Source: Owenia fusiformis
Taxonomy: Eukaryota; Annelida; Polychaeta; Sabellida; Oweniidae
Length of the DNA: 64,000 nt
NCBI GenBank assembly: GCA_903813345.2
Contig: CAIIXF020000003.1
Coordinates: 17,806,931 to 17,870,930 of the forward strand
Direction of reading: 5' to 3'
The translations under genes and the position numbers were made by a program. Numbering within the stretch: the stretch's first letter is position 1; each line of letters starts with the position of its first letter. Positions 31,301-62,000 of the stretch are shown in pieces. Under the pieces are notes generated by a model. It saw nothing but the letters and a program-made list of their open reading frames with translations, was not told where the DNA came from and did no database searches.

Positions 31301-34300
31301 GCCAGCCCGCCTGCCCGCCTGCCTTTGAACTAGACTTTGAACATATTAAATGCATTTCTGTTCTGATTATAGGCTACTATTCCATATGGGCACACGTCTC
31401 AACAAAGACTAGCAGTATTCAAAGAAACATAGGTAAATATGAGTATAGTGCAGTACAATTATGTTCCATTTGTGGGTTTCCTAGTTTGTAAATGCTGACA
31501 TAAAATTGATCAGCTTCAAAGAGATTGAATGAAAAACACAAATATGAACTTATTTTTGTGCATGCTATTGTTTTTAACCAAGATGATTTTGATTTGTAGC
31601 ACCTTGGGCACTGTTTTTGGCACAATACTGTTATTGAAAAATTACAGGGTGAAACACTTAGATGGACATCATGATTTGATTGGCAGCCACCAAAAAATGC
31701 AGAGTGGTACATAAAACCACTAATATGGAAAAAAACTTGCATCGATTCTTAGTCATCTCAGAAAGTTTGAGATCAATCATGCTAATAATGAATGAGTTAT
31801 TACACTTTAAAATCGGTAACATTTTTTGGCCCACCTTGTATAATGTCTACTTGTAGAGGAACAATGACAAGTCATGATGTCTTCATTTTATTGCAACTAT
31901 TGTTGTTTTCAGGGAAGTTGTACATTGAACACCCTATTTCCACATTCAACGTTGTCACAGACAGCCCAATAATCAAGCCCACACTGGAGATGACATATGA
32001 ATTCTCACCCCCTCTACCCTCAAATATAAATTACACAATCAAGGATGGAACTTTTTCAGGTAAGATTCAAAATTAATCTGGATATCAATAAAGGAAAGCA
32101 AAGATGTCAAAGAATTTCCGAAGTATGCTGCAATGGAGTATCCCTGCATTTTGCAAGCAAGTCAGGCCCGTAGCCAGAGGGGGGGGGGGTTTAATGGGTT
32201 CCAGCGTTAATGGGTTCCACCCCCCCCCCCCCAGCCAAAGAATCTTATAAAATCATGCAGTTTTTCACCATTCTGAGCACTTTTTAAGTGATTTTGGCCA
32301 TTTTTGGACCAAAATTGTCAAAAGTAAAAAATCATAAAAAGAATTATCGTAAGGTGATTAGGCTTAGCTACCTGGAATTTTTCAAAAAGTGAACCCCCTT
32401 GGCAAATCCAGGCTATGGGCCTGCAAGTTATATATTGTACATTTTGAGTGATGGAATCAATTTTCTTCACAAAAATTCATATGTAGTCAAAAGCAGATTA
32501 TGTTTGAAGGTTTAATGTATTTTCAGAGACATCCTCATTAACCCAAATGAAGGGTATCCTGACACATGCCTTCAGCTTGCCTGGAGAATTTGATATCAAA
32601 CTGACCATATGTAACCATGTGAATCAGCAATCCAAGTCAATTTCTGTAGAAGTCCATGAGCGATTGGAATCATTTGATCTTCAGGTTCTTAGGGAAAGTT
32701 CAAGCCATAACTGTGGTTTGTCAATTCAACCTTCAGTGAAACAGTCCTTGTTTGGTTCTATATTGGAGACATATCCAACTGGATGTGTGCTAACATTCAA
32801 AGCATATGACTCTACACAAGGAGCATCGAAATATAAGTACACCATACTGAAACTTGTGAATTTTGCTGATACAGTTAGTGGGGATAAAAGTGCTGAGCTT
32901 GTGACACAGATTGAGACACAGAGTAGCATACGACATGCGTTCACATCCCCTGGATTATTCTTCATACACTGTATTGTTTACACGGGGGATTATACATTTA
33001 AATCTGGGTATGTCGTTGTGGACATATACCCTACTTTAGATATTTCCCTGACCCAGGTTTACTATGGAGAAACCTACGAAATTGATGAAATAGATTATCT
33101 TAAACTTGGTGAATCTATCGATATGGAATGTAAATTGGATTATGATGCAAGCAAATTCACAAATGATGTTGTATATACATTCTATATTCTTGAAACAAGT
33201 TCCCCATTATCATATATTGATATTGTTAAAAGGAAAGAGGATGGAGAATCAGATAATGATATTGGGATTGTCCAGTATAATTTGAATTTAAATAGTGCAA
33301 CTCAAATGCAAACATTAACTTTGGATAAGACAGGGAACTATACCTCAGCATGCAAAACTGTGGACCCAAATACAGAAGCAACACTTATAAACAGCAAGAG
33401 TTTCCAGGCAAAGAAACCAACAGAAGGGCTGTACCTCATCAGCAGTAGCCCAGTGGAATATGGATCTGATGTTGAGTTTATTTTATTCGCTCAAGAAGTC
33501 GGAATGAAATCTTCATTTACCGTTCAATACTCTGACCCCTCAAGCAATGGCAACTCCCCAGAGGCTATACCCACTCTATCGCAGAACCAAAACATCAGTT
33601 CCCAAATTTCCGCCATGGTGGATCTCCCATTTGATCCTTCAACTAGTTACAGTTCAGTGTTCAGACACAACTACACTCTACCAGGCTCTTATATTGTAAA
33701 TGTGACTATACAGGAAGATATAGGAGTACAGTTTATAGGCACTCAAGCTGTGGTGATGACAGTGATTTGTCACCTGCCAGATATTTCTATACAAGGTGGA
33801 GGTAAGTTTATGTAAACTCTACCAGGCTCTTATGTTGTTAATGTGACCATAGAGGAAGATATAGGAGAACAGTACATAGACACTCAAGCTGTGGTGATGA
33901 CAGTGATCTGTCACCTGCCAGATGTTCCTATACAAGGTGGAGGTAAGTTTATGTAAACTCTACCATGCTCTTATATATAGTAAATGTGACCATACAGGAA
34001 GATAAAGGAGTACAGTTTATAGGCACTCAAGCTGTGGTGATGACAGTGATCTGTCACCTGCCAGATGTTTCTATACAAGGTGGAGGTAAGTTTATGTAAA
34101 CTCTACCATGCTCTTATATATAGTAAATGTGACCATACAGGAAGATATAGGAGTACAGTTTATAGGCACTCAAGCTGTGGTGATGACAGTGATCTGTCAC
34201 CTGCCAGATGTTTCTATACAAGGTGGAGGTAAGTTAATGTAAACTCTACCATGCTCTTATATATTGTAAATGTGACCATACAGGAAGATATAGGAGTACA

Positions 34301-37300
34301 GTTTATAGACACTCAAGCTGTGGTGATGACAGTGATCTGTCACCTGCCAGATGTTTCTATACAAGGTGGAGGTAAGTTAATGTAAACTCTACCATGCTCT
34401 TATATATTGTAAATGTGACCATACAGGAAGATAAAGGAGTACAGTTTATAGGCACTCAAGCTGTGGTGATGACAGTGATCTGTCACCTGCCAGATGTTTC
34501 TATACAAGGTGGAGGTAAGTTAATGTAAACTCTACCATGCTCTTATATTGTAAATGTGACCATACAGGAAGATATAGGAGTACAGTATATAGGCACTCAA
34601 GCTGTGGTGATGACAGTGATCTGTCACCTGCCAGATGTTTCTATACAAGGTGGAGGTAAGTTAATGTAAACTCTACCATGCTCTTATATATAGTAAATGT
34701 GACCATACAGGAAGATAAAGGAGTACAGTTTATAGGCACTCAAGCTGTGGTGATGACAGTGATCTGTCACCTGCCAGATGTTTCTATACAAGGTGGAGGT
34801 AAGTTAATGTAAACTCTACCATGCTCTTATATATAGTAAATGTGACTATACAGGAAGATATAGGAGTACAGTATATAGGCATTCAAGCTGTGGTGATGAC
34901 AGTGATCTGTCACCTGCCAGATGTTTCTATACAAGGTGGAGGTAAGTTTATGTAAACTCTACCAGGCTCTTATATTGTAAATGTGACCATACAGGAAGAT
35001 ATAGGAGTACAGTTTATAGACACTCAAGCTGTGGTGATGACAGTGATCTGTCACCTGCCAGATGTTTCTATACAAGGTGAAGGTAAGTTAATGTAAACAC
35101 TACCATGCTCTTATATTGTAAATGTGACCATACAGGAAGATATAGGAGTACAGTATATAGGCACTCAAGCTGTGGTGATGACAGTGATCTGTCACCTGCC
35201 AGATGTTTCTATACAAGGTGGAGGTAAGTTTATGTAAACTCTACCATGCTCTTATATTGTAAATGTGACCATACAGGAAGATATAGGAATACAGTATATA
35301 GGCACTCAAGCTGTGGTGATGACAGTGATCTGTCACCTGCCAGATGTTTCTATACAAGGTGGAGGTAAGTTAATGTAAACTCTACCATGCTCTTATATAT
35401 AGTAAATGTGACCATACAGGAAGATAAAGGAGTACAGTTTATAGGCACTCAAGCTGTGGTGATGACAGTGATCTGTCACCTGCCAGATGTTTCTATACAA
35501 GGTGGAGGTAAGTTAATGTAAACTCTACCATGCTCTTATATATTGTAAATGTGACCATACAGGAAGATATAGGAGTACAGTATATAGACACTCAAGCTGT
35601 GGTGATGACAGTGATCTGTCACCTGCCAGATGTTTCTATACAAGGTGGAGGTAAGTTAATGTAAACTCTACCATGCTCTTATATTGTAAATGTGACCATA
35701 CAGGAAGATATAGGAGTACAGTATATAGGCACTCAAGCTGTGGTGATGACAGTGATCTGTCACCTGCCAGATGTTTCTATACAAGGTGGAGGTAAGTTAA
35801 AAACATGTAACAAAAGCCATGGGCTTTACCAAGTTCAACTTTTTCTATTGTACAGGATACCATTGATGGATGGATTTATTCCCAGGTGTACAATTTTACC
35901 CATTATGCTTATTATAGACAAGTGGCAGAAACCCAAAAAATGTAAAAACATATATTTTCAAGTTTGACATTTAGAATTACATTTAGCTAAATGCTTATGT
36001 TTGGCTCTATCTAGTCTGTCCTATTTTATGTCAAATACATTTATTTCATTTCTTGATTAAAGGGGAAACAAGACAAGATGCCGTTCAGTATGTGACATCA
36101 CAGAGCATACAACTGATATCTAACTTAAAGACAGACTGTTCCATTGCCTCAAGGGCAACATTCCATTGGAAAGCCTTTCGCATTAGGTACATTTATTTAG
36201 TACATACTTAACAATACAAAATATGGACTCACCTATGGTCTATACTACATGTACAGGGTGTCAAATAAGTCCTGTCCCCCCCTCTACAGCCAAAACCAAG
36301 ATATATGGTACCAAGTGTGATATATCATTGGAAAGATCTTCGAAAGTTACGTTGATTAGCATATATCCGACACATGTCAATCATTGTATGTCATTTTACA
36401 TTGTATCAATTGAGGTGACCATAGGCCCAGAAACATGGCAATTTGATGTATTTTGCAGGATTTTAAGAATCGTGTGTAAGAAAAGTTATAGGACCTGAAG
36501 ATGACTACATATGTAAATGGCAATAAATTTAACCAATCTCTGGGTCGGGTTGGATGTGTAGAAAATAGAGGTGCAAGTAAAGTGGTGAAAACCTTTTTGT
36601 AACAAGTAGAATGTGAATAAGGTTAACTTTTTGACATATTTCTGAGGTCATATCCTTTTTTTGACGCAAAAAAGCTACTTAAATGAGGGTACGCTAAATA
36701 TAAAGGACATCATGAAAATATAGGTGAATTTCATCCAAAATACTTGAGAGTTGACGAGTTTAAAGCTTTGGATGATCTTTCCAATGGTATATCAGACTAG
36801 GTACCATCTATTAAGGTTTTAGCTGTAGCAGGGGGGACGGGACTTATTTGACACCCTGTATATATACTGTACAATGAGGGATTTCAAGTAGGAGTGTAAT
36901 CATTGAATAAAAGACTAAGTAAATCTTGAGTTTAATTTTTTTTTAAAACTACAAAACACAAAATTGCCAAATCTGACAAATGGCAAATTATAAAAAATAT
37001 TTGCCAGTTTCTTAACTTTTGAATTTTCATCGTTCTGGAGCTGTATTTTTTATTATATAATAATTAACTGTACTTCATCAAAATCAAATCGCTGGTGTAA
37101 TGATTTTTGGATGGCCTTCTAGAATCAAGGAGGATTGGCTCCCAGGATTGAAACTCAATATTATCCAACAATGAAAATGTCAAAATGTTGTTATTTTCTG
37201 AAATTATAACCCACTATAAATTCAAAGTAAACAGTTCAAATGATTCGAATTTCGAACTAATATATCGATCATTTCTTGTGAGTTTTGGAATTTTCTTTTG

Positions 37301-49300: not shown

Positions 49301-52300
49301 GGCTTTCAACAAGAAAATTGAGCTGTCTAATTCCCTACCCTGTAGGCAACCTAGTTTACTTTTCCACCTTTGGATCAATTATATTATAGCTACTGTATAC
49401 TAGTCAAAGTTCCGTTTACTCGGAATATGCTCCCAGGACAAAATCAAAATTCCACCCTCTTGGACAATACAGAATGTTAATTCCTGACCCTCCCTGTTTT
49501 GGGAGAGGGTTACTCAAATCTTTCAATGGTGTTAAATCTTTTAGTCATATGAAATGAATTAATTAATTTTCAATTCCGATGCATGTTTTTTTATTCATAA
49601 TTTAAATGTAGTAAATGGATTTTCAGGTTGTAGATTTCAAGGCGAACCCTTTTGTTTGGGCCAACAATAGTAACAGTGTCACATCAGGTGTATCAAAACT
49701 TGATTTGAAGATAGATGGGGCTACTTTAGCAGTCACAAATCTCAGTGAACCATTCAGCATTACATCTACCTTAAAAATCTTTTAGTCATATGATATGGAT
49801 TTTCAATTCAGATGCATGATTTTTTCTTCATAATTTATATGTAGTTTTATGGATTTTCAGGTTGTAGATTTCAAGGCGAACCCTTTTGTTTGGGCCAACA
49901 ACAGTAACAGTGTCACATCAGGTGTATCAAAGCTTGATTTGAAGATAGATGGGGCCACTTTAGCTGTCACAAATCTCAGTGAACCAATCAGCATCTACCT
50001 TACAAATCCTACCAAGATTCAACCAATTGCAGGAGGCATTACAAAACTTGCATGGACAAATCTTGAATTCAATGTTTCAAGCATGGATACTTCAATAACC
50101 ATTGTATTTGAATGTTCCAATGCTGCTGACATTTCTTCAGTCGATGTAGACGCAACTTTAGATGTTTATGTGGGGTCTGATTTTAACTCAACGCCAGAAA
50201 ATTTCACATACAAAACAGATGTCATACTTGGTGATATTCTGTCGAGTGATCAGGGTTTCTATAGTTTAGTGATACCTGTTATGTCACTAAATGGAACTGG
50301 ATCGTATAGTGCTGCCATCTTTTTTAATAGTTCATTATCAAACTCAGTTAATTTCATCCCATTGAATATCACCCCTGTAGAATCCAGCTGTATGTACTGG
50401 GACGCTAGCAATGACACATGGAGTAGTCTTGGCTGCAAAATCGGGACGAAATCAACTTTAACGACCACCCACTGTGAATGTACCCACCTGACCTCATTTG
50501 GAAGTACATTTTTCATCGCTCCTAACAAAATAAACTTCGCAGAGGATCTTGCGAAATTCGCAACATTCTGGGAAAATCCTACTGTGATTATACTGGTGTC
50601 AGGGCTGATGGGATTGTATGGCTTGCTGTGTGTGTGGGCCAGGAGGAAAGACAGAGAGGATGCTGAAAAGTTAGAAGTAATTAACCTTTTTTTATTAGAA
50701 CTCATCAATTTGTAAAATAGTGACACTGAGTCAAAATACTAATTTTTCGTAATAATGATTTCACAAAGCCTCAGAAATTACATTACCATCTTTTTTAACC
50801 CACCTCTCTAACTACCCTAATTTTCCTGACATGACTATTATTATGTCACCACCAGAAGAGTTCTATTTTTATAGTCTTCAACTTTGTTGTGGATGGTGTT
50901 CAGTGGTTGTCAATCAGTGTTTGGTGGTTGATGGTCAGCGTTTGGTGTCTGTAACAAATTTTGCATGTTTATGCCTTGTTAGTTCTATGAAAAATGAATT
51001 GATTCTGCTCCTTACAGGCAGCTTCTCCAATCTCAATTGAACACTATAGATTACATTAAAACCATTCAGACAGCAAAACAGCATACTCTGTGATTACATC
51101 ATATGGAAAGCTCTGGTGTAAAAAGCAAAGTTGGTGTGTGTTTGTAGGTGATAAACTTGGCAGATAATGACCCTTTGGCTACATATGTCTATACTGTGTT
51201 GGTAATGACTGGTGCAAGGCGGGGGGCAGGAACATCAGCCAATGTGACATTGACTCTCATAGGTATAGAAACAATTAAAGTACATTAATATGGATTTGAA
51301 TTTTGTCTCAGTTTTCCTCACAACAGATTTTCCTTTTTCTATGTTTTCATTTTTTAAGAATCTTTTTTCAAAAAATGAAAAATGTCTAAAATAACAGTAA
51401 TCACTTTCTAGGATATTTAGATATCATTTTTATTCACTCCTGGATCCCTTAAAATCATAAGATATTCTCATATCTTTAGGTAGTAAAGAAGAAAGCCTGC
51501 CACACTACCTTCACAGTGATAAGAGGGTTGTATGCCAACAAAGAGATGGCGATGCCTTCCAGGTGCGCTGTACAGAATTTCTTGGAGACATCACAGCTGT
51601 CAGACTCTGGCACGACAATAAGGGAGATAATCCTTCATGGTGTGTATTTTAACTCCCTCCCTCCCCTGATGCCTGCCCATATATAAAAACGTTAAAATAA
51701 GTTTATATATTTTTCTTGCTGCCCGATTTTAATGAACTGTCTGATTTTGGCCCATTTCTAGACAATTTACGATTTGTGAACTAAATATGATGTTCTACAT
51801 ATAATATCCCCACATATGTACATCTTGGTAAGTACATGTATTTCAAATAGCCTAAAAATTGTTGATGGTTGACATCAATGGTGGATCCTGGATATAGCTG
51901 TCACCCTGGGAGAATCCAGGTGTCCATGACAGTACAGTGAAGTAGAAACTTCACATTGGTACCTGTGACAAAGCAGGGTTGTTACAAAATATTTCAACAA
52001 TTTAGCTTCATAACAAAGGATTTTGTATCTGTGTAACACCTCAGAAATCCTTTGTCACATAGCTTCGTAAAATGCTTCGTAATGAAGCAATCGAACACTA
52101 CTTTGTAGCTGGTACCAATTTTAATACAGTTAAATATATAGCTTCAAATATAAAAGTTCAAACATATGTAAAGAAAATGCAGTGAAGGAGGTACCTGTTT
52201 TCAGTGCTTTACAGAAAGATAGTCTAACATTTTAAACACTACTGTAGGTATGTGAGCAAAGTCCAGGTGGAAGATATGCAGACAGGCAAAATATGGCAGA

Positions 52301-55300
52301 TCCTGACAGATTCATGGCTAGCTATTGACATAGGAGAGGGTGTTTTGGACAAGACATTCAAAGTGGCAACAAAAAGAGATATAAAGGAATATGGACGCCT
52401 CATCAGCAGTAGAACTGCAAGGTACACTGACACTGTACATGTATTAAACAGCGGTTGTTTTTGCTAGCATGTCACATTCACTCATGGGTCAATTTGTGAA
52501 TTTGAAATGTCACTAATAATTTTTATGCCACCACCAGAAGAAGTGATATATTGTTATAGTCTCAAACTTTTTTGTGAATGGAGTTTGGCAGTTGGCATTT
52601 GTAACAAATGGCAGGTGGTGACATTTTGCATGTTAATGTCTCGTCTCAATACTATTGAAACCAATGGAAGTTCCATCGGATAAATGAATTCAACAGGATA
52701 TTGAATTTTTAAAAATGTGAAATTTCTCATATAGGAATGAATAATTCAGTCAGGAGTCAGGAGTAAGATGAACTTCAGACAAGCCTGAAACTGAGTGAAA
52801 AGATATATAGTATTCAACAATAAAAGTCAATGTCAGTTAATTATTTCTTCATTGATAACTCCTTATTATGGATTACAGTGGCCTAGCTGATGGTCATATT
52901 TGGTTCTCTGTGTTCAACAGACCAGCCAGGAGTACATTCACTCGTGTACAGCGCCTTTCATGTTGCATATCTCTGCTGATGTGTACCATGCTTACAAGCA
53001 TCATGTTCTATGGTATATCTGAAGCTGATCCATTTGAGCAAAAGCTAGACCTGGGGTCGTTCAAGTTCACATGGACAGAGGTGCTAATAGGTACGTGCGT
53101 AATTAAGCTCACAACCAGAAGTGGTGACATATTGTTATAGTCTCCAACTTTTTTGTAAACTGTGTTTGGCTGTTGGTGTTTGGCCATGAGGCATGTTAAT
53201 ATATTAGTTACGCATGTTTATGTCACTACCAGAAGTGATGACATATAGTTATAGTCTCCAACCTTTTGTTTGTGGATGGTGTTTGGCCATCAGCTTTAGG
53301 GAATTGTGTGTTGATAATAGATATGCTACATAGTACTGAGTGCCTTCCACCTCACCATGAATATCATTATATTATTGGAAATAAACTAAAGAAATGTAAT
53401 GAAATATAATATAAGGGGTCATGTCTTAAGTTGAGTTGGGGAGGTAAAAAGCTACATGTAGGTTTCATTATAGAAATGAGAGATATTGCCAAATGTTACG
53501 TAAACAGGATCGGGACTTAAGCCATCATTAACTTGTAAGGCATGAAACTGACCTTTACAAGGTTCAGCATAATGATATATCTTTCTTATAATATACAGGT
53601 ATCCAGTCAAGCATCTTCATGTTCCCGATCAACATCCTCATAGTGCAGCTGTTCCGTTTATCTAAGCCACCCCCTGTGAAGAAAAAATCTGCCTACGAAA
53701 CCATGTCTCGTGCATCAATTCAAGTCAGTCAGATTCGCAGTTTGCGGGCACTTGAAGTGAAACCCACTCAGTCTCAGATTACAAGGCCTGTATCTTTAAT
53801 GGAGTCCATTGACAAATTCAAATCAAATGTGAAGTCAAGCTCAGTGCAGCTAACATCCAAAGTGTCTCAATTATTTTCCACACGTGGCGAAAGCGAAACT
53901 GACAAATCTGAATTTGATCAACATAAAGATGCAGCTAGGACTATTCACGAGCAAGAGGACGTTGATCCTAAAGTAAAGGATTCATTCAAATCATTTGGGA
54001 GTACAAGCTCAAATTGGTATTCAAATGTAACACTATCTGGTTTTTCTTCTGTAGATGAATTAAATGACAGCACCAAGACTGAGCTTGCGGATATAAAAGA
54101 TGATCCTCGGACCATTTCAGATCCAGTGATGAATGACTACGATATGAAGGACTTCGATGATGTGCGAAATTCATTAATGTCAATAAGGAATCTACTTTCC
54201 TCCTCTCTACCATCTAACACTGATGTTCATGCATTAAAATCGGATGAAGTTGATGCAGGAGCCAAGAGGAAAGCTCCATTAATCAATCCCGAGTGTGAAT
54301 CTGGTTCTGCTAAAAATCATCAAAAATCCAAAGACCCTGTTGATGGAGTATCAAGGAATAAATCTGTCACATTTGGAATAATGAGTCTGATCAAAAGAGT
54401 TCAGGCTGAATCTATACCAGATCCATTTGAGGATCAGTTTAAAGACTGTTATGAGGATATGAGTGTTAAAGATAGTGATGTTCACATAGAGCTAGGGAAT
54501 GGCAGTCAAGGTCGCGTAAAGTCAAGGAAGAAACGATTTAGATTTCCATGGTGGTTCATCTACATAGGTTTGTATAACAGTCAGGCCTCCTAGACTTTGA
54601 TTCATGTGGTTGTCAGTGCCGACGTCGCTGACTTCAATGAGGGAACTCGATGCACCAGAGGAGAAATAAGTTGGGAGAGAGGAACTGGTGGTTCGCAACT
54701 GAAGAACTGATATTCACATAGTGATATTGTGGTTCAGGTGGAAGAAACAAGGTCAGTGACGTTGAAACTGACGATTGTGTGAGTCGAAGTCTAGGAGGCC
54801 TGTACAAGTCTGATGTATTTTTATTTCATTTTTTGTTTACACAAATGTAAATTTAAGCTCAGTATATGAATATCTCTCATCTCTCTCTTTTTGTATTGTG
54901 TTTTTATGTCCATAACATGTTTGTTTAGCTTGTAGTATATTTATACATTCTCAAAATCGCACTATGGTTTTATCTATATTTTCTTACATGTATTTCAGGC
55001 TGGGTGCTTGTTATTCTGACCACCCTCAGCACAGGGTTCTTTATCATGTTATACAGTATGAGTTATGGTAGTAAGCGTACTGTTGAGTGGTTATGCTCTA
55101 TAGCTGTATCGATTACCCAGAGTGTTTTCTTAGAGCAACCCATCAAGGTAGGCCATAGATTCGAATCTCAGGCTGGGTGCTATTTATTCTGATCACCCTA
55201 AGCACAGGGTTCTTTATCATGTTATACAGTATGAGTTATGGTAGTAAGCGTACGGTTGAGTGGTTATGCTCTATAGCTGTGTCAATTACCCAGAGTGTTT

Positions 55301-56510
55301 TCTTAGAGCAACCCATCAAGGTAGGACATAGATCCCAATACCAGAAAAATGCTCTGCCTGAGAATTTGAGAAAGAGTGAGTCAGATGATGTTTGTGGCTA
55401 TGAGTGATATGTGTGTCTATGTTTCCAGGTGATATGTGTGGCTGTAGTGTTAAGTCTGATCTTTAAGAAGCCAGAGGAAGAGGAGGAGATAGATCTTCAG
55501 TACCAGCCACAATGGACAGTGCCCAGTAAGTGCAGACCCTTAGCCAGCTTTTGCCAGGTGTTCAGTTTTTGAAAAATCCTAGGGGGATTCACATTTGACC
55601 ATTTCACCCCAAAATCACTTGAGAAGTGCTCAGAAATCAGAATGGTGAAAAACTGCATGATTTTTAAAGAATGGTCAGCCGAGTGGAGGGTTTTGCCCAC
55701 ACATCCTGAACCCCACCCCTGACTACAGGTCTGAAATGGCTTTATACTAAATTCTAATGAGTATGTGTTCTTATGCAACCATCAAGAAGTGATGACATTG
55801 TCATAGCCACCACTAACACTTTTCTATGACTGTCTGCATTCAGAGCTTAATCGGTTTTTGTTGATGTTCAGTTCATCTGTTCATCTGTAACAAGTTGTTA
55901 CACTTTAGTTATGATCTGCCAAATGGTGACATTTTGTCATGTTCATACCTAAAAGCAGGTATTATAGAAACTGCTAGACCAATCCGTTCTTGTTTAAAAA
56001 ACATGTAAATATTTAGAAAAACTGAGAAGGTGCGCAAGTAATTGTCATAATAGCATTGCACTCTGTAGTAGAATGTGCAAAACAATACAAGAATTCAAAC
56101 AGAAATTCATGACTAGTATATTCATTTCATTTATTGACATCTGCAATTTTGTGATTTCTATCAAAGGTATAATTCAAATATGGAAAGATTTGCATGGTAT
56201 TGCACCTTATGCATAGTCAAGGTATTATTTTACAGAGCAGAAATACTTGACTGAAATCTGGCATGAACGTGTGATGAACTTGCGCAAAACTGACTCCTGC
56301 TACCAGCCCCCACCCCCTAGCTCCATCACAGAAGCGCAGAAGCGTTTACGCCACAAAGAACGAATGAATGCTACTATCCGTGAGATTGTAGGTTACGTGA
56401 TGTTCCTGTGGATATTACTACTGATCGTGTACGGACAGAATGACCGCAAGTCCTACCTCATGAATAAGAATATCAAAGATACACTCTATAAACAGAAGTC
56501 ATTCAAGTTG
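6887..56510 (+). CDS. Polycystin-1/REJ-like receptor gene, 33 exons visible, both ends missing
   Basis: Exons: 6887-7345, 13674-13842, 19674-19951, 24238-24486, 25825-25960, 26297-26474, 29202-29346, 29676-29866, 30187-30296, 30959-31137, 31373-31432, 31913-32059, 32527-33801, 36063-36186, 37536-37627 plus 39291-39310, 39737-39857, 41537-41692, 42103-42531, 43095-43298, 43711-43856, 44427-44630, 45561-45784, 46138-46252, 48812-49066, 49861-50676, 51148-51262, 51480-51639, 52248-52421, 52879-53090, 53599-54567, 54999-55147, 55429-55525, 56236-56510. All phases agree. Family knowledge: such proteins are large surface receptors, autoproteolysed at GPS, that pair with TRPP channels; sea-urchin REJ proteins act on sperm at the egg jelly. 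No signal peptide exon was seen. The TOP/pore exons should lie right of 56510, at least 7.5 kb away. One REJ exon is interrupted by a transposon, so this allele may be damaged. Confidence 0.9.
8722..10465 (+). mobile_element. Long copy of the TGTCACCACC element with internal minisatellite
   Basis: Begins with a hairpin TGTCACCACC-AAAA-GTGGTGACA followed by a G/C-rich 'GGCGTCCGGC' stretch. Ends GGTGGTGACATTTTGTCATG. The terminal TGTCACCACC and GGTGGTGACA are inverted repeats. An inverted relative lies at 62390-63072. Confidence 0.7.
8870..10440. repeat. ~140-bp minisatellite, about 11 units, dense in AGGTCA half-sites
   Basis: Each unit runs from 'CAACTTGCTTCAAATTGAC' through 'TCAAAATCATCTACATG' to 'TGACCTTCAATGACCTTC' and 'TCAAGGTCAAAAAAGGTCA'. 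Unit lengths vary by internal duplications such as 'ATTTGACATTTGACCTTC'. Several units contain TGACCT-n4-TGACCT and AGGTCA-n4-AGGTCA arrangements. Confidence 0.9.
11189..11345. mobile_element. Small MITE with inverted ends
   Basis: The left end CTTTAAAGGAATAAGTGATTCC is matched inversely by GGAATCATTTATTCCTTTTAA at the right. About 157 bp, AT-rich, no coding capacity. It splits the right arm of the large palindrome. Confidence 0.6.
12126..12479 (-). pseudogene. Fragment of a transposase-like N-terminal helix-turn-helix domain
   Basis: A 117-codon minus-strand ORF. The segment KYKHYSDSERAKIARYASIHGN resembles the N-terminal 'Y..Y.dedRakIgrYAaenG' helix-turn-helix segment I know from DDE transposase-like proteins of aquatic invertebrates. 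After residue 70 the sequence becomes low-complexity and carries repeated TTTCGCGA motifs, and no DDE catalytic part follows. Probably a 5' fragment kept in a MITE-like element. The exact family is uncertain. Confidence 0.4.
12823..13187. repeat. Foldback element, arms of about 175 bp
   Basis: The left arm from 'AAATGTACCATTTCTTTTTT' to 'TTTTTAATTTTTTCTATGAAAA' is matched inversely by 'TTTTCATAGAAAAAATTAAAAA' to 'AAAAGAAATGGTACATTT'. The centre near 12985-13035 carries GCTCCCCCAAGCTGGAC, and a further copy of that phrase occurs at about 13325. Confidence 0.8.
13674..13842 (+). CDS. Receptor exon: first half of C-type lectin domain
   Basis: The acceptor is TTTTCCAG and the donor ATAAG|GTAAG. 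The translation opens with the standard lectin start: a Cys, then GWISYSSHCYK, then the 'Y..AE.EC' helix (YSQSEAENECQNFNGHLVSI). It ends in phase 2 and joins the exon at 19674 across a 5.8-kb intron. That intron contains a minisatellite, an antisense gene and a Helitron-like insertion. Confidence 0.9.
13925..14815. repeat. 45-bp minisatellite, about 19 units
   Basis: The unit is approximately ACATTATTGTGAGAATTAAC then ATTCTCCATGCAGACAATAC then ATGTC. Units carrying 'CTTACTAGTCACAGT' recur at larger spacing, so there is higher-order structure. Because 45 is divisible by three, both strands show long open frames; these are artefacts of the repeat. It starts about 80 bp after the lectin exon's donor. 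Confidence 0.95.
15051..16700 (-). CDS. Unrecognised two-exon gene nested antisense in the lectin intron
   Basis: Exon 1 is 16700-16244 (ATG at 16700; donor ATGGAAG|GTAATA) and exon 2 is 15424-15051 (acceptor TTTTTTCAG; TGA stop). Phases match and give a 276-residue product. Residues 1-150 are mixed, with a hydrophobic segment around SPAAILASALINGLQYEASV. The middle is strongly acidic (runs of Asp/Glu around EDDNHMEGDDSFNDSDISES). The last 80 residues are rich in Asn/Thr/Pro with repeated 'ETVTP' and 'NVTP' motifs. No signal peptide, transmembrane helix or known domain was recognised. It lies wholly within the intron 13843-19673 of the receptor gene and runs opposite to it. The consistent splice and the codon-like composition make it likely real. 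Additional upstream exons are possible, because the frame remains open 5' of the ATG. Confidence 0.6.
16701..18830. other. AT-rich intronic DNA without recognised genes
   Basis: Contains a duplicated 'ATCATCTATTTGTTATTAAC' (about 16815 and 16875). About four diverged copies of a ~65-bp segment with 'TTTAGTGTCAAAA' lie at 17275-17510. Nothing else was recognised. Any promoter of the nested antisense gene would have to be in the first part. Confidence 0.6.
18831..19610 (+). mobile_element. Helitron-like non-autonomous element, copy 1
   Basis: Begins TCCCACCGAACGAAG after an A. Ends with a short hairpin ACTCC-GT-GGAGT, then TGCTGTTTTTCTAG followed by T. This is the A|TC...hairpin...CTAG|T structure of Helitrons. 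The interior consists of ~120-bp tandem units containing 'ATAACTCAAATACCAG' and 'TTCAAGATGGCCACC'. It ends 63 bp before the next lectin exon. Confidence 0.75.
19674..19951 (+). CDS. Receptor exon: second half of C-type lectin domain
   Basis: The acceptor is ATTTTCAG|T and the donor ACAG|GTTTC. It continues the fold with FWLGL, WTDAS, NYTNF, then a Cys-rich CPGCNCVIL and the closing WSKTECTETFKAICM. The carbohydrate-binding EPN/QPD and WND triplets are not preserved in canonical form, so calcium-dependent sugar binding is doubtful. The last part (about 20 residues, with N-glycosylation sequons) is linker. Confidence 0.9.
20283..20615 (+). mobile_element. Helitron-like element, diverged copy
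   Basis: Begins TCCCATCGAACGAAG and ends near GGGATTTGCTACGCATGC...TTGCTGTTG, but the CTAG terminus is lost. A 5'-truncated relative ending in an intact GGAGTTGCCGATTTCTAG|T lies at about 21355-21713. Confidence 0.55.
20766..21028. mobile_element. MITE with AGGGGCGTAGCCAG ends
   Basis: The left terminus GGGGCGTAGCCAGC and right terminus CTGGCTACGCCTAT are inverted. Likely relatives with 'GTAGCCAG'-type ends lie at about 26926-27060, 32162-32424, 46304-46330, 47297 and 55534-55730, several with G or C homopolymer runs next to the end. Confidence 0.65.
21163..21307. repeat. Near-perfect hairpin, stem of about 61 bp
   Basis: The left arm includes AAGCGTGACAGTTGAACGCA then CAGGGTAAGGTACAACA. 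The right arm is its exact reverse complement over 37 bp, with matches extending outwards to GTGTGTACC/GGTACACAC and inwards to GATGATG/CATCA. The loop is about 23 nt. It could be a very small MITE or an expressed RNA hairpin. Confidence 0.8.
21928..23221. mobile_element. DNA transposon with CACGGTG termini and ATTAA target duplication (Transib-like)
   Basis: Flanked by ATTAA at 21923-21927 and 23222-23226. The ends are inverted repeats of about 40 bp starting CACGGTGTATAACCCAA and continuing through GCTCCTACATGCA and GACGGAGCG. The motif ACGCTCC/GGAGCGT recurs about ten times inside. A 5-bp duplication and a CACNNTG-type heptamer are features of Transib/RAG-related elements. On the minus strand near 23148 an ATG with ten codons (MAANEDSTMT) runs into a consensus donor GTAAGT, looking like a first coding exon. 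No transposase core is present. Confidence 0.7.
23350..23755. repeat. 33-35-bp minisatellite, about 12 units
   Basis: The unit is approximately CACATCAAGGTTGTGTGCAT then ATTTTCAGAAAAA. Variants with CAAATTTTCAG alternate at the left end, indicating earlier block duplication. Open frames on both strands are repeat artefacts. Confidence 0.95.
24238..24486 (+). CDS. Receptor exon: PAN/apple domain
   Basis: The acceptor is ATTTACAG|GT and the donor ATGG|GTAAT, phase 1 to 1. Cysteine pattern: GACIKGY, MEKCKELCKGE, FSCKSIDY, EETCQIS, then PCPSESHWSYAEM. The 'C..lC......C.s..y......C.lS' spacing is that of PAN/apple modules, which bind proteins or sugars. It follows the lectin domain directly. Confidence 0.85.
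24487..25824. other. Intron with a small GGGGTTTCA-ended MITE
   Basis: Contains AT-rich sequence, two copies of an 'AAACCATTT...GAATTCA'-type phrase (about 24700-24790), and an element at about 25385-25556. The element's ends GGGGTTTCATT and AGTGAAACCCC are inverted. A related piece is at about 56690-56760. No exon was recognised. Confidence 0.5.
25825..29346 (+). CDS. Receptor exons: F5/8-type C (discoidin) domain, three exons
   Basis: Exons are 25825-25960, 26297-26474 and 29202-29346. The first starts with CSEQLVSGRTYSVSDGAITVSS, the usual 'C..pLGm..g.I.d..itaSS' opening. The second carries GAWAAEVKDANQWIQVDLGE and VTGVVTQGRADEPQWVKTYKLDYG, the hallmark of the fold. The third ends with NARYVRIKPQSWEEHISLRFDIIGC, the standard closing strand and Cys. 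Phases agree. Such modules bind phospholipid or glycans outside the cell. The 26475-29201 intron is filled with repeats. Confidence 0.9.
26926..28375. repeat. Intronic repeat cluster: direct repeats around a ~143-bp tandem array
   Basis: A ~250-bp segment with 'GATCTGGAAGCTAAGAAT' and 'GGCCAAGTAATGC' occurs at about 27025-27250 and again at 27910-28135. Between them (27322-27870) lie about four units containing 'AAACCGCT..TCAGATTTTCT', 'CACACATGATAGA', 'AGCTGATTAACTTTT' and 'GGCCATCTTG'. The stretch ends in CTTTTGGGACACCCTGTATA, a mariner-type terminus. Confidence 0.75.
28550..29115. repeat. TGACCTTGACC-rich repeat followed by GGCA/GGAC tetranucleotide microsatellite
   Basis: 28550-28930 has about five diverged ~90-bp units containing 'TTTGACCTTG', 'CACCTAATCATGAGT' and 'CAAGGGTCAC'. 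29020-29100 is an interrupted GGCR/GGAC/CAGA microsatellite. No coding evidence. Confidence 0.7.
29676..32059 (+). CDS. Receptor exons: extracellular linker / PKD-like region, five exons
   Basis: Exons are 29676-29866, 30187-30296, 30959-31137, 31373-31432 and 31913-32059. They connect the discoidin domain to the PKD repeats with matching phases. The translation has N-glycosylation sequons, a CNWPVDPPP start and FSLRGIGPLHLKI, then a Cys-containing segment SNRCTSDCIDSKEFC, and the last exon resembles the beginning of a PKD-type Ig-like strand (ISTFNVVTDSPI). No named domain is certain. The donor of 30187-30296 (CCAACA|GTAAGC) is the first unit of a minisatellite. The acceptor at 30958 (TTTTTGAAG|GA) was preferred to the TTCAG eight bases later because only it preserves the frame. 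Confidence 0.75.
30290..30835 (+). repeat. ~41-bp minisatellite whose unit contains the 5' splice site of the preceding exon
   Basis: About 13 units of approximately CCAACAGTAAGCAATTCTCT then CATGTATTCTACATATTTCA. The first copy is the true exon end (30291-30296) plus donor. Nearly every unit keeps CA|GTAAGC. Confidence 0.9.
32162..32424. mobile_element. MITE of the GTAGCCAG family
   Basis: CAGGCCCGTAGCCAG at the left and AATCCAGGCTATGGGCCTG at the right are imperfect inverted ends. A poly-G run, then a poly-C run, follows the left end. Confidence 0.55.
32527..33801 (+). CDS. Receptor exon: long PKD-repeat exon
   Basis: A single 1,275-bp exon with acceptor TTTTCAG|AG and donor GGTGGAG|GTAAGT. 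The product has about 424 residues. It contains several PKD (Ig-like) closing-strand motifs: THAFSLPGEFDIKLTICN, RHAFTSPGLFFIHCIVY, LDKTGNYTSACKT and RHNYTLPGSYIVNVTI, spaced about 100-130 residues. Long intron-less runs of PKD repeats are usual in polycystin-1 genes. The 3' end of this exon is the seed of the minisatellite that follows. Confidence 0.85.
33802..35800 (+). repeat. ~142-bp minisatellite: 14 further copies of the PKD exon's 3' end with its donor
   Basis: Counting the exon itself there are 15 copies of 'CAAGCTGTGGTGATGACAGT' at roughly 33745, 33886, 34028, 34173, 34317, 34458, 34600, 34742, 34886, 35027, 35167, 35308, 35450, 35596 and 35736. Each is followed by CACCTGCCAGATG and almost all by GGTGGAG|GTAAGT. 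Each intervening segment ends in ACCATACAG, an acceptor-like sequence. Most units have TAA shortly after the donor. Copies differ by only a few bases. Confidence 0.95.
36063..36186 (+). CDS. Receptor exon: start of REJ module
   Basis: The acceptor is GATTAAAG|GG and the donor ATTAG|GTAC. The translation includes SIQLISNLKTDCSIASRATFHWKAF, the REJ opening of a strand, a Cys and a Trp. It joins the PKD exon in phase 1 and the next exon in phase 2. Confidence 0.8.
36254..36858. mobile_element. Mariner-type MITE with TA target duplication
   Basis: Flanked by TA on both sides. The ends CAGGGTGTCAAATAAGTCC and GGACTTATTTGACACCCTG (one base variant) are inverted, and inner stretches around 'TTGGAAAGATCTTCGAAAG' also pair. 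605 bp. The ORFs inside are not transposase. Confidence 0.85.
37126..37430. mobile_element. hAT-type MITE with TCTAGAAT target duplication
   Basis: TCTAGAAT stands at 37118-37125 and 37431-37438. The termini CAAGGAGGATTG and CAATCCTCCTTTA are inverted. It lies about 100 bp before a REJ exon. Confidence 0.8.
37536..39310 (+). pseudogene. REJ exon split by a foldback transposon
   Basis: The exon runs 37536-37627 and resumes at 39291-39310 once the insertion and one 8-bp target copy are removed. Its 112 nt then fit the flanking phases exactly (enter phase 2, leave phase 0). The family motif returns: LPQFALPYG before the break and VYLLEFK after it, the usual REJ 'LP...L.yG.Y.L.f.V' strand. With the insertion present the frame reaches a stop inside the element, removing everything from mid-REJ onward. 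No scarless splice around the insert is visible. The rest of the gene is intact, so this may be one allele. Confidence 0.85.
37628..39282. mobile_element. Foldback hAT-like transposon inserted in a coding exon
   Basis: 1,655 bp, flanked by CTATGGGG (37620-37627 and 39283-39290). The ends TAGGGTGGCTCAAAATAATT are perfect inverted repeats. The inverted arms extend about 640 bp each (to about 38265 and from 38626) and are almost identical over the outer 300 bp. The centre (38266-38625) has an open frame with ELVVLSLFDKYTAREEKQEL that I do not recognise and that may be a captured fragment. There is no transposase. Confidence 0.9.
39737..43298 (+). CDS. Receptor exons: core of REJ module, four exons
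   Basis: Exons are 39737-39857, 41537-41692, 42103-42531 and 43095-43298. Family motifs: WLEIVPAPLQAKIVGGSARVV, then DITLDASRSFDPDL and LLDYTWFCRR, which is the classical REJ 'L.LdaS.S.DPD...L.y.W.C' signature. Next come Cys-rich strands (ITCHINCVAFINPKERLALR, CTTCEEADILKYSWEI) and GSSGSPGYSQYTF. In sea-urchin REJ proteins this region accompanies binding of egg-jelly glycan and triggering of the sperm acrosome reaction. The 43095 exon has two in-frame acceptors six bases apart (after 43088 and after 43094). Confidence 0.9.
40426..41513 (+). mobile_element. Helitron-like non-autonomous element, copy 2
   Basis: A|TCCCACCGAACGAAG at the start; the end is ACTCC-GT-GGAGT hairpin, TGCTGTTTTTCTAG|T. 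1,088 bp with about six internal ~120-bp units. The right end is 23 bp upstream of the acceptor for the exon at 41537, in the same orientation as the gene, so the branch point for this exon is probably inside the element. Confidence 0.8.
43330..43638. mobile_element. Foldback MITE with CAGTAAAACCTGTGT ends
   Basis: CAGTAAAACCTGTGTTAATGG at the left pairs with CCATCAGACAAGTTTTACTA at the right. Inside, AGTCAATTTGCTCCGAT pairs with ATCGGAGCAAATGTGACT, and GAGTATTTTGTT pairs with AACAAAATACTC. It lies in the intron 31 bp after the REJ exon. Confidence 0.75.
43711..45784 (+). CDS. Receptor exons: end of REJ and start of GAIN domain, three exons
   Basis: Exons are 43711-43856, 44427-44630 and 45561-45784. 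The first ends in a beta strand with YILDMSVRVEDAYGAATEVF, typical of the last REJ strand. The second and third are helical and polar (SVLDLLMKTGDDQGVTRLISSVGTLL; DTQKKAALAVKDMAAFLRT), matching the helical GAIN subdomain A. The acceptor of the third exon was taken as TTTTAAG|TTAAG because only that keeps phase 0. Confidence 0.75.
44885..45394. repeat. 34-bp minisatellite, about 15 units
   Basis: The unit is approximately GGCAGTCAGGCAGCTGTGTC then AACTGGTTACCATT. Since 34 is one more than a multiple of three, successive units shift frame, and all three plus-strand frames read the same 34-residue cyclic peptide. The long ORFs here are therefore artefacts. Intronic. Confidence 0.95.
46138..46252 (+). 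CDS. Receptor exon in GAIN region, copy A of a duplicated exon
   Basis: The acceptor is CTCATAG|G and the donor GAGGAG|GTGTTA. It encodes NLVSGLDNLLDAVIS and a glycosylated tail with DTDILGEHNTTQPEQ. 115 nt, entering in phase 2 and leaving in phase 0. The following exon (48812) requires phase 0. An almost identical copy lies 991 bp downstream. Confidence 0.75.
46560..46990. repeat. Tandem intronic repeat between the duplicated exons
   Basis: Two ~170-bp units with 'CATTTGAGGGATTCATCTGAA', 'GAACTGATTAGTTTTTGG' and 'AAGGTGGCCATTTTGGAT', followed by a related partial unit. It interrupts the duplicated block after 'GGGCCCTTATTAC'. Confidence 0.75.
47129..47243 (+). CDS. Receptor exon in GAIN region, copy B
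   Basis: Same length, same acceptor and donor bases as 46138-46252, and the same protein. I count three nucleotide differences, all silent (ACG/ACA, CAG/CAA, CAT/CAC). The duplicated block is about 520 bp (46037-46567 and 47036-47557) and includes intron on both sides. Because 115 is not a multiple of three, including both would shift the frame. Confidence 0.7.
47761..48400. mobile_element. Foldback MITE with TCA target duplication (Harbinger-like)
   Basis: TCA flanks both ends (47758-47760, 48401-48403). The termini GGCTGCTTTTTTGAACTGCC and GGCAGTTCAAAAAAGCAGCC are perfect inverses. Inner stretches (ACATGTTTTCAACAAAAA and TTTTTGTTGAAAACGTGT) continue the foldback. The 3-bp duplication and GG-start fit PIF/Harbinger, although the usual target is TWA. 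Confidence 0.75.
48812..49066 (+). CDS. Receptor exon: GAIN domain
   Basis: 255 nt, phase 0 at both ends (acceptor TTTTCAG, donor ACTGAG|GTATTA). The product has 85 residues with FSVAVNRQFMSQIDG and FVLPTGGAIMSLIGSG, the region where PKD1-type GAIN subdomain B begins. Confidence 0.8.
49627..49784 (+). pseudogene. Truncated upstream duplicate of the GPS exon
   Basis: The first ~120 bp of the GPS exon, with its acceptor (GGATTTTCAG|GTTGTAG), is repeated 234 bp upstream. The copy matches through NLSEP, then diverges and stops at TAG (49782-49784) with no donor. A tandem duplication unit that includes 'AATCTTTTAGTCATATGA' explains the join. If its acceptor were used, the protein would end before the GPS. 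Confidence 0.8.
49861..50676 (+). CDS. Receptor exon: GAIN subdomain B, GPS cleavage site and first membrane helix
   Basis: 816 nt, 272 residues, phase 0 at both ends. GPS Cys/Trp pattern: CMYWDASNDTWSSLGCK followed by CECTHLTSFGS. By family knowledge autoproteolysis occurs at HL|T, here encoded at 50485-50493. The stretch before it is glycosylated beta-rich GAIN sequence with several N-x-S/T sites. After about 25 residues comes a hydrophobic helix (VIILVSGLMGLYGLLCVWA) and a basic cytoplasmic start RRKDRED. All canonical GPS residues are present, so cleavage is expected. Confidence 0.95.
51148..52421 (+). CDS. Receptor exons: PLAT domain, three exons
   Basis: Exons are 51148-51262, 51480-51639 and 52248-52421. 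Motifs: YVYTVLVMTGARRGAGTSAN, the PLAT opening strand; DKRVVCQQRDGDAFQV and VRLWHDNKGDNPSW, the central 'iwHDn.G..psW' signature; then VQVEDMQTGKIWQIL and SWLAID. PLAT lies on the cytoplasmic loop after the first helix in all polycystin-1 proteins, where it binds phosphoinositides and adaptors. Confidence 0.95.
52879..53090 (+). CDS. Receptor exon: second membrane helix
   Basis: The acceptor is GATTACAG|T and the donor ATAG|GTACG. It contains DGHIWFSVFNRPARSTFTRVQR, a conserved polycystin-1 stretch before helix 2, then SCCISLLMCTMLTSIMFYG, the helix itself. Confidence 0.9.
53599..54567 (+). CDS. Receptor exon: third helix, long cytoplasmic loop, start of fourth helix
   Basis: 969 nt. It opens with helix 3 (FMFPINILIVQLFRL). 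About 260 polar, Ser/Asp/Lys-rich residues follow, without recognised domains, and the exon ends in RKKRFRFPWWFIYIG, entering helix 4. The loop has many Ser/Thr with acidic context and is probably phosphorylated and disordered. Confidence 0.9.
54582..54802. mobile_element. MITE with CAGGCCTCCTAGACTT ends
   Basis: CAGGCCTCCTAGACTTTGA (left) and TCGAAGTCTAGGAGGCCTG (right) are inverted. 221 bp. It begins only 14 bp after the donor at 54568. No clear target duplication. Confidence 0.75.
54999..55147 (+). CDS. Receptor exon: fourth/fifth helix region, variant A
   Basis: 149 nt; acceptor TATTTCAG|GC, donor ATCAAG|GTAGG. It encodes GWVLVILTTLSTGFFIMLY (helix 4) and TVEWLCSIAVSITQSVFLE (helix 5 start). 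It enters in phase 1 and leaves in phase 0. The polypyrimidine tract before it is good. Confidence 0.9.
55172..55320 (+). CDS. Receptor exon: fourth/fifth helix region, variant B (tandem duplicate)
   Basis: 149 nt, the same boundaries as variant A. It differs at about eight bases, two of them amino-acid changes in the helix (Val to Phe, Thr to Ile). It lies 24 bp after variant A; that 24-bp spacer is itself repeated after variant B, so the duplicated unit is 173 bp. Joining both copies would break the frame, so each transcript can use only one. The acceptor GAATCTCAG has almost no pyrimidine tract. Confidence 0.75.
55429..55525 (+). CDS. Receptor exon: fifth helix end and acidic loop
   Basis: The acceptor is GTTTCCAG|GTG and the donor CCCA|GTAAG. 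It encodes VICVAVVLSLIFKKPEEEEE followed by IDLQYQPQW. Phase 0 in, phase 1 out. Confidence 0.9.
56236..56510 (+). CDS. Receptor exon: sixth helix and start of TOP/polycystin domain (last visible exon)
   Basis: The acceptor is TTTTACAG|AG and the donor AAGTTG|GTATG. It contains basic AQKRLRHKERMNATIREI, then the helix VGYVMFLWILLLIVYGQN, then SYLMNKNIKDTLY, which starts the extracellular TOP domain. It ends in phase 0. The remaining TOP domain and helices 7-11 are expected to the right of the window. Confidence 0.9.
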
Positions 56511-59009: not shown

Positions 59010-62000
59010 TCAACCTGTAAAAAATATTTTCAATTTTTCTAGAACCTTCTTGTTTTTCGTTACAAGAACCCTATTATTTAATTTTTCTGCAAACAGTTCA
59101 ACTATTCCTGCCCATCCATTTCTGTTATATACAATATTTAAGTGTTCCATTGTCAAACCGCTCCCGGCTATTCTATCTGCTATGCCATCAGATATGTATC
59201 CTCCAGTTACAAGGCGAGCAAATGAAGGTTTATTCATTGCCTTGACTTTCAAATACTCGTGGTTTTGTAATGTAAAGTGCATGGTAAAACTGGATTTTCT
59301 CTTCTCCTCTGTGGTGAAACCAATTCTATTTGAAAGTTCCTGTAGAGCGAGAACGTCACCTAATGCGCTATGAGCATCATATTCAAAGTTTGGAATGTAA
59401 GATTCCACGAGATCTACTTGCTTGTAACTTTTGAGTTTTGGATACTTCCTACGAATAAGGATCTTGGAATCTATGAATCCTTTAATTCCATTGAAATTAA
59501 GTTTCATTGTGTTGTGGAGAGCATTTATCAAAACGTGCACGTCAAATGTCTTTATGTTGTGTCCAATCAAAATGTTGTTTTCACTTTTTTCTAAAAATTC
59601 CTGGAAATTGTCCAGAGCTCTGCTTATGGGAACACAAGGAACTTTATTCCCATGGTGGAACATTTCACCCCCTTTCATACGGATCCCTGTAATAACACTA
59701 GCTTCTTCAGAAATATCCTCTTTTGGCTTCACATAAATATTGAATCTTTCATTTCCACGAACTGCGCCAATTTGTGTGATATGTGAAGTGCGATCTGAAA
59801 AATATAAAAAAATATTTATAATTGTTGAAAAAGTATTTTTTTTGCATAAAACTATTTGCTTAAAACTATTGATCCACAAGTATTTGAGTTATTCTCCAGG
59901 AACAGATTGATGGATGGATGGACAGACGGATGGAGGGGTCCTGACCCGGTCCTGTTGCAAGAAATTATTTTTTCACAATTAGGCTATTTAGCCTATGAAG
60001 GTTACTTCAGTATTTAAAATTCCGACCAATGTCATCAGTTCATTCAACAATTTTATTGTAATAACTTTCTGTGTTTCTATTATATTGTGAATGAGAACAT
60101 TTAAAATACATACATAGGCTTGTCGTTTCCAAATCAAAGTATATCTCTGTACTCTCCCTCAACGGATGATCAACTGGTGAGTCAATTGGCCTAACTATGG
60201 GAGGGGGTATCACAGTGCTATTGATAGCTTCAACATCTGTGTCCTGGAGTTGAAGTTCCTTCTGATAAGTTGGCCCTTCCCGAACCTCAGCAGATTTTCT
60301 ATTTTCATTCCTTGAAAAGAACAGAGACATTAATGGACAAAACATATTAAACATAGGGAAACAAAGAAAGAAGAGTGATCTGATACAATATCAACTAGAC
60401 ACACAGCAACTCCACAGAGTAGCAAATCCCACCGAAACTCCACTTTAAACTAAAATTGCGGCCATTTTGAAAAATTGCATTCAAGCAGAGATGCTATTGC
60501 CATAAAGTACCCCACAAAATTTGATGTAAATCCGTCAAATGGTTTTCGAGTAATGGCATTGACAAAAAATCGACAAAAATGACAGCCATTTTGAAAATAG
60601 CGGCCATTTCGAGCAGAGGTGCTATCACCATAAGGTATAATCCCACTAAAGTTGAAGTAAATCCGTCAAACAGTTCTTGAGTTATGGCCCGGACAAAAAA
60701 TCGACAAAAATGGCGGCCATCTTGAAAATAGCAGCCATTTTGAAAAATCGCTTTCGAGCAGAGGTGCTATTGCCATAAGGTGTAATCCCAACATTTGAAG
60801 TAAATCCATCAAACAGTTCTCGATTTATGGCCCGGACAGACGAACAGACGGACGGACGGATGGACGGACGGACGGTCGGCTTTCCTATATCCCCCTCAAA
60901 CTCCGTTCAGTCGGATAACTACATGTACACTATCAGCCTTCTAGTGAAGTACAATTTAGAAACCACATAGCTTCAGAATAATAAAACTGCCAAGCTTACA
61001 ATGCATATTTCTATACAGTATATGAATACTGTACTGTTTCATATTAAATAGTAAAGTAATTTCTGGCATGATCTCACATTCACACATTCAAGAAATTACA
61101 CCCATACTACAATAAAAAGTGCATATGTATTTCTTCAAATAAGATTTTAATTTATGAATATGAATGTAATTGTGGAAACCCATGGTTTAACCAGATACAA
61201 TGTAGTGTTACTCAAAGACCTAACATGTCTATTGCTCTTAGAATATATGATTTTGTGTTTGTCACATACCTGTTGGCCTTTAGATGGATGCGTCTCAATT
61301 TTGCTCTTTTGGTCAATGATTTCGCTTTTCTTATTTTCTCCCGTCTTTCACGTAGTGTCGTCAATCTCAGAGTGAATTCTCCTGGAGAGATTCCAAGTCT
61401 TTCATTAACCTACAAAAAAGTATATTATAAAGAAATGTTCATGATGTTTTGGTCAAAAAGTAATATACGATTGCTACCTATTGTACATTTTTGATATTCC
61501 ACACCCATGAGTGATCATCCACGCTCATTCCCAGAACCAAAAAAATTTTTAATTTAAAATTTTCAAAATAAAATAACGCTACATTCGGGGCTATAACTAG
61601 ACAACAGCAACGCGAAGCGTAGCAAATCCCATCGAACAGACTCATGGCTGCCATTTTTATAAAATCCTTCCACTACTTTTTCAGTTCTAACAAAAATTCA
61701 CCATTATAAAATGGTAAGTCAAGAGCCAAGAGTTATAATTATGTTTCTAAGTAGGCATATAAAATTTTATCTAACTGCACACACATACATGTAAATGTTG
61801 GCCATTTTTCAAAATGGCTGCCTACTAGCCAAAGTGTCATAAAACAGTATGCCATGCAGAGTATTCACATATCAAATATTAACTAGGACAGTGAGTCATG
61901 TTTATGAGTATTCACATAACAAATGTGAACAAAATCCCCCTTTTACTTTTTGAGTTACAGTAAAAAATGTAAAATAACACACGTAAAAATGGCGGCCATT

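Follow-up and report, generated by a model that had tools for sequence, protein, structure and literature searches.

The window analysed here is the whole stretch of 64,000 nucleotides from Owenia fusiformis, and positions are counted from its first letter. It contains, on the plus strand, two adjacent copies of one exon (A and B) in a gene whose domains show it to be a polycystin-1 relative of the membrane receptor/channel type. Upstream of the exon pair and on the same strand, matches to REJ (2.4e-21 and 2.2e-18, with a further piece at 3.2e-8), GPS (1.4e-8) and PLAT (1.2e-4; 23.2 bits at a cut-off of 23) were obtained, and the best match of the genome to PKD_channel (2.0e-41; 3.1e-44 in a Pfam scan of the same place) lies downstream on the same strand at C3:17888139-17888792. 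The combination of REJ, GPS, PLAT and a PKD channel in one gene, which marks the polycystin-1 family, was thus found, and from their order and strand all four domains are presumably carried by one transcript. Two open frames on the minus strand, opposite to the polycystin gene, lie in what appear to be its introns, namely 59010-59888 with an RNase_T exonuclease (3.1e-14) and PML_C (1.2e-15), and 63240-63998 with a Mutator-like transposase domain (PF20700, E 8.5e-38), the latter cut by the end of the window.

The homology of the duplicated exon was examined with a profile made from exons A and B and 13 paralogous segments, and this matched the human PKD1 structures 8z6f (E 1.9e-4) and 6a70 (E 9.5e-4). 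The region matched is the one we take to be that of helices 4 and 5 of human PKD1, and the domains and this alignment together agree with the original prediction of a helix 4/5 exon in a gene of the receptor-channel type. A PDB search with the exon as a single sequence gave no human PKD1 match, and its prolactin-receptor matches were set aside as chance, the profile search having given PKD1 instead. In the genome, 16 matches at E 0.01 or better were obtained, three of them in the gene itself (A, B and the next exon) and 13 at paralogous places; the paralogue search scores the best candidates only, here 17 of 17. A second adjacent copy of the exon was sought at the 13 paralogous places and was found at none, and one of these places has a stop just past the donor, within intron sequence. 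The upstream exon ends in the residues FPWWFIYIG, which can be aligned to the paralogues. The coordinates of the exon pair and of the other duplications are given in Table 1.

Table 1. Exon pair, flanking exons and further exon-edge duplications in the window.
Feature	Position	Strand	Description	Basis
Tandem array	33675..35800	+	About 15 copies of a 141/143-bp unit: exon 3' end, donor GGTAAGTT, little intron	
234-bp duplication	49566..49994	+	Same gene; repeats the end of an intron, an acceptor and some 130 nt from the start of the exon leading to the GPS motif	
Upstream exon	53599..54567	+	969 nt, phase 1 end, donor ATAG/GTTTGT	Open frame, splice phases
CAG	54996..54998	+	Left edge of unit and exon A acceptor; shares microhomology with 55342-55344	
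Exon A	54999..55147	+	149 nt, helix 4/5 region, native acceptor, donor AAG/GTAGGC	
Linker	55148..55171	+	24 nt, copies the start of the downstream intron; CAG end is the candidate acceptor of exon B	
Exon B	55172..55320	+	149 nt, frame as exon A, Val4Phe and Thr7Ile, weak acceptor, donor AAG/GTAGGA	
Start of downstream intron	55321..55344	+	First 24 nt, parent of the linker; CAG end is the right edge of the duplicated unit	
Downstream exon	55429..55525	+	Phase 0, common to A and B forms	Frame kept with A or B only

Both exons and the 24-nt gap between them proved to be placed in the original prediction exactly to the base, and TRF, run independently, detected the same repeat (54995-55333, period 173, 2.0 copies, 95% matches), which is far above chance. 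Exons A and B are identical at all but 7 of 149 bases. As had been predicted, two of these differences are replacing, at codon 4 (GTT/TTT, Val/Phe) and codon 7 (ACC/ATC, Thr/Ile), and the remaining five (codons 3, 9, 27, 36 and 37) are silent; exon B has no indel and no stop. The exon length of 149 nt is of the form 3n+2, and the flanking exon edges at 53599 and 55429 are compatible with the pair. When joins were made in silico through the next exon, the frame was intact with A alone and likewise with B alone, and a stop was reached with neither exon, with A and B joined, and with A, linker and B, so that the claim that inclusion of both exons shifts the frame was borne out. The pair therefore has the form of tandem-duplicated mutually exclusive exons, that is, adjacent homologues of equal length (149 and 149 nt) and compatible phase whose double inclusion is impossible or out of frame (24-nt gap; stop in A+B). 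With only the two single-exon joins in frame and the others running into stops, mutual exclusion at the level of the protein is secure. Joining of A to B by ordinary splicing across 24 nt, held in the original prediction to be too short for an ordinary intron, is indeed unlikely, for introns of 43 and 49 nt are already regarded as ultrashort and enigmatic in PMC8363638.

Beyond what had been noticed before, the repeat continues past exon B, and the linker is itself a copy of 55321-55344, with 19 of 24 bases identical. The unit copied head to tail is thus 173 bp long and takes in the exon with 24 bp from the start of its downstream intron; its two copies show 12 mismatches over 173 sites, of which 5 fall within the 24 nt of the linker. 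CAG is found at both edges of the unit and at the junction (54996-54998, 55169-55171 and 55342-55344); this, together with the continuation of the repeat past exon B, identifies the event as a tandem duplication of the exon with 24 intron bases, which probably formed at the CAG microhomology. Exon A retains the old upstream intron and its acceptor, exon B retains the old downstream intron, and the acceptor of exon B exists solely because the duplicated unit happens to end in CAG. The silent divergence between A and B is about 0.18 (differences at 5/31.2 sites, about 16%) and that of the linker 21%; by its silent divergence the pair is young. In the intron before exon A, inverted 16-base ends caggcctcctagactt and aagtctaggaggcctg (54582-54597 and 54787-54802) were seen by eye, resembling a short transposon remnant.

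Splice sites were scored with generic matrices, and acceptors were ranked among the 6,937 AGs that the two strands of the window contain. By these generic matrices the acceptor ranks of exons A and B were 0.989 and 0.879, and the pyrimidine fraction of the 18 nt before the AG was 0.78 for exon A, 0.56 for exon B and 0.67 each for 55429 and 53599; the acceptor of exon B is weak, as predicted. The ranks of the other acceptors were 0.978 for 55429, 0.958 for 53599 and 0.811 for 56236, which is a less certain edge, and in the 234-bp duplication they were 0.735 for copy 1 and 0.914 for copy 2. The acceptor of exon B is poor, yet not below every other edge in the gene. By the generic matrix the donors of A and B scored 5.2 and 4.6 (ranks 0.994 and 0.991) and both fall in the top 1% of GTs of the window. 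No YTNAY motif was found in the 60 nt before exon B, where seven competing AGs stand at -15, -22, -26, -38, -40, -51 and -53; acceptor 55429 also has upstream AGs and likewise lacks the motif, so that its absence at exon B is suggestive and not decisive. The steric-interference class of tropomyosin and OGDH is marked by a mapped branch point less than about 50 nt from the upstream 5' splice site; for exon B the branch point could only be located within exon A or the linker of 24 nt, or else further upstream.

The interpretation placed first, with slightly less than an even chance of being right, is that the 173-bp duplication has left exon A as the default and exon B as a minor, mutually exclusive alternative. 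A tandem duplication at the CAG microhomology would have copied the helix-4/5 exon together with 24 bp of its downstream intron, and exon A, keeping the native acceptor, would be chosen by default, with exon B as the minor form. Within 24 nt a 5' splice site could not be accommodated together with a branch point, which would bar the join of A to B; the products would be distinguished by two residues of helix 4, Val/Phe and Thr/Ile, spaced by about one helical turn. As the A-B join is sterically barred and frame-shifting, and the skipping of both exons is also frame-shifting, each productive message would contain exactly one copy. From the sequence we infer that exon B is spliced at all, and then at a low level, and its being in use has a roughly even chance. 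The narrower proposal, that exon B is spliced by way of a branch point in the coding sequence of exon A or in the 24-nt linker, which would make this an extremely tight natural pair, is somewhat unlikely.

The divergence of the two exons bears directly on the use of exon B. Between A and B, 2 replacement differences were counted over 115.8 sites, 5 silent differences over 31.2 and 5 in the 24 nt of the linker (silent and linker together, 10/55), and the rates of exon and linker differ (Fisher P 0.014). If both copies had been free, the P value would be 0.006 with exon sites only and 0.0004 with the linker included; for a single copy set free at the duplication, the values would be 0.056 and about 0.016, respectively. 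Such silent-biased divergence suggests that exon B has been read as coding. The chief competitor, to which we would give a chance a little lower again, is that exon B is a passenger of a chance duplication that happened to cover the whole exon, so that only A is spliced, with B enclosed in an intron of 55148-55428. The silent-biased differences would then come from unequal recombination of two diverged alleles or from gene conversion. Differences of about 16% at silent sites and 21% in the linker are high for alleles of one species, and without an allelic origin the last of the P values above disfavours a free exon B. Haplotigs were sought with 2-kb pieces from three lesser contigs, and only repeats spread over many contigs or matches to other small contigs were obtained, with no clear haplotig among them.

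Exon edges have been duplicated in tandem at two further places in what is probably the same gene, as would be expected if exon B were a passenger. The abundance of tandem repeats in the window (59 TRF rows, of which some overlap) agrees with this as well. One of these repeats, a 34-bp unit in fifteen copies (TRF) at 44888-45396, appears to lie within an intron of that gene. In the 234-bp duplication the exon part of copy 1 starts at 49627 and is an incomplete exon, and that of copy 2 starts at 49861 and continues. Copy 1 has a stop after 52 codons and no GT near the end of the copied part, the last ones before the stop being at 49732 and 49745; an internal CAG/GT is present in both copies (49685 and 49919), and copy 1 may be used through a cryptic donor. 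With gaps uncounted and the copy edges beyond 126 nt excluded, the copies showed 4 silent and 0 replacing differences over 126 nt (42 identical residues) and 8/79 in the intron part, that is, replacement 0/97 sites as compared with 12/108 for silent and intron sites together, and the same test disfavoured a free copy (P 0.019 and 0.011). Because this duplication has an equal silent bias with no complete extra exon, the bias cannot prove the use of exon B: either copy 1 is used unseen, or the silent-biased differences of this gene have another origin, which for exons A and B may be, for example, unequal exchange between diverged alleles. The bias noted in the original prediction is real, but as an argument for use it is weaker than it first appears.

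The array at 33675-35800 probably belongs to the same polycystin gene. The exon before it matches a PKD domain weakly (E 2.7e-4; 21.4 bits) and falls short of the curated cut-off of 27 bits, and membership is for this reason taken from strand, order and domain type. Fifteen donors were counted, with near-identical exon ends and the strong donor GAG/GTAAGTT. Over 96 nt the most divergent copy has 6 replacing and 3 silent differences from copy 1, and the other 13 copies have 1-3 replacing and 1-2 silent differences each, counts that are small and not independent and that come from copies which are not separate exons. This divergence is compatible with constraint on one side only, and with the same reserve as to numbers the array copies do carry replacements, which speaks in favour of the use of exon B. 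So do the lack of any indel or stop in exon B and the quality of both donors, whereas the weak, junction-made acceptor points the other way. The residue at codon 4 does so too: among the 12 of 13 paralogues with a residue there, V was found in 5, S in 3, C in 3, A in 1 and F in none, and human PKD1 has S. Codon 7 is occupied in all 13, by S in 5, I in 4, T in 2, A in 1 and C in 1, and human PKD1 has L. In this comparison exon A appears typical of the family at codon 4 and exon B with its Phe does not, and at codon 7 the residues of both exons are seen in paralogues.

An alternative 5' splice-site switch, in which the acceptor of exon A is combined with the donor of A (149 nt) or with that of B (322 nt) so as to tune the amount of protein, is improbable. 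It would make no use of the weak acceptor of exon B and would be served well by two donors of nearly equal score; the 149-nt form would be productive, and the 322-nt form, retaining the linker, would run for 14 codons beyond exon A before reaching a stop. It predicts, however, that the codons of exon B are unconstrained, yet silent changes prevail. That the duplication is an artefact of assembly or a rare haplotype, absent from the normal gene of the species, is most improbable: there is a single assembly, and a genome search with the region returned the region alone and hence no second haplotype for comparison, but the copies differ at the sites counted above, their edges lie on a common CAG, and a 173-bp repeat is far below long-read length.

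A real duplicated exon is thus present here, and it is plausible that A and B form a steric mutually exclusive pair of an already known kind. If exon B is used, the locus would be a young case of mutual exclusion that needs no regulator and is set by the endpoint of a duplication; it would imply that a new exon copy requires an AG and not a good polypyrimidine tract, and the branch point could be mapped, perhaps within coding sequence. Should the branch point indeed lie in exon A or the linker, the locus would offer a snapshot of a pair born from one duplication made by microhomology, in a gene whose exon edges have been duplicated repeatedly. If exon B is not used, the locus would be a caution that an exon copy may be intact and silent-biased and still be a passenger.

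A search of the literature on polycystin and mutually exclusive exons gave no report of such a pair, judged by titles and the beginnings of abstracts. Mutual exclusion by steric interference is already an established principle. Of the minimal steric mechanism put forward in the original prediction, the logic of exclusion stands, and the principle is known from OGDH and the human clusters; should exon B be in use, the locus would join the steric class as a new member, both tight and young. According to PMC7969005, exons 4a and 4b of OGDH are mutually exclusive since the branch points, mapped 25-41 nt from the 5' splice site, lie too close to it, and a like principle is given there for the exons of alpha-tropomyosin, through a mention and a cited title. 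In these genes, as is proposed here, alternative exons (duplicated ones in OGDH) cannot both be included because the 5' splice site and the branch point obstruct each other sterically; OGDH differs in having a longer intron with mapped distant branch points, whereas here the whole gap is 24 nt and exon B is a candidate exon. Human clusters of mutually exclusive exons, also neighbouring and homologous, include 57 of 629 (9%) with potential steric interference, and in 377 of the clusters there are also exons of a length not divisible by three; these clusters (PMC5740500) were predicted and then validated with transcript evidence, unlike the young pair described here. Tandem exon duplication was proposed as an origin of alternative splicing by Kondrashov and Koonin (2001), as cited in an excerpt of PMC6071210, and an exon with an adjacent piece of intron copied in tandem is likewise found here, with the difference from the model, as outlined there, that the copied intron is too short to supply a polypyrimidine tract. 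Finally, exons Ab and 3 of U2AF1 are also duplicated exons of which one is disfavoured, being held back by a weak branch-site region, and this regulation was tested experimentally (PMC5224494), whereas that of exons A and B is proposed from sequence.
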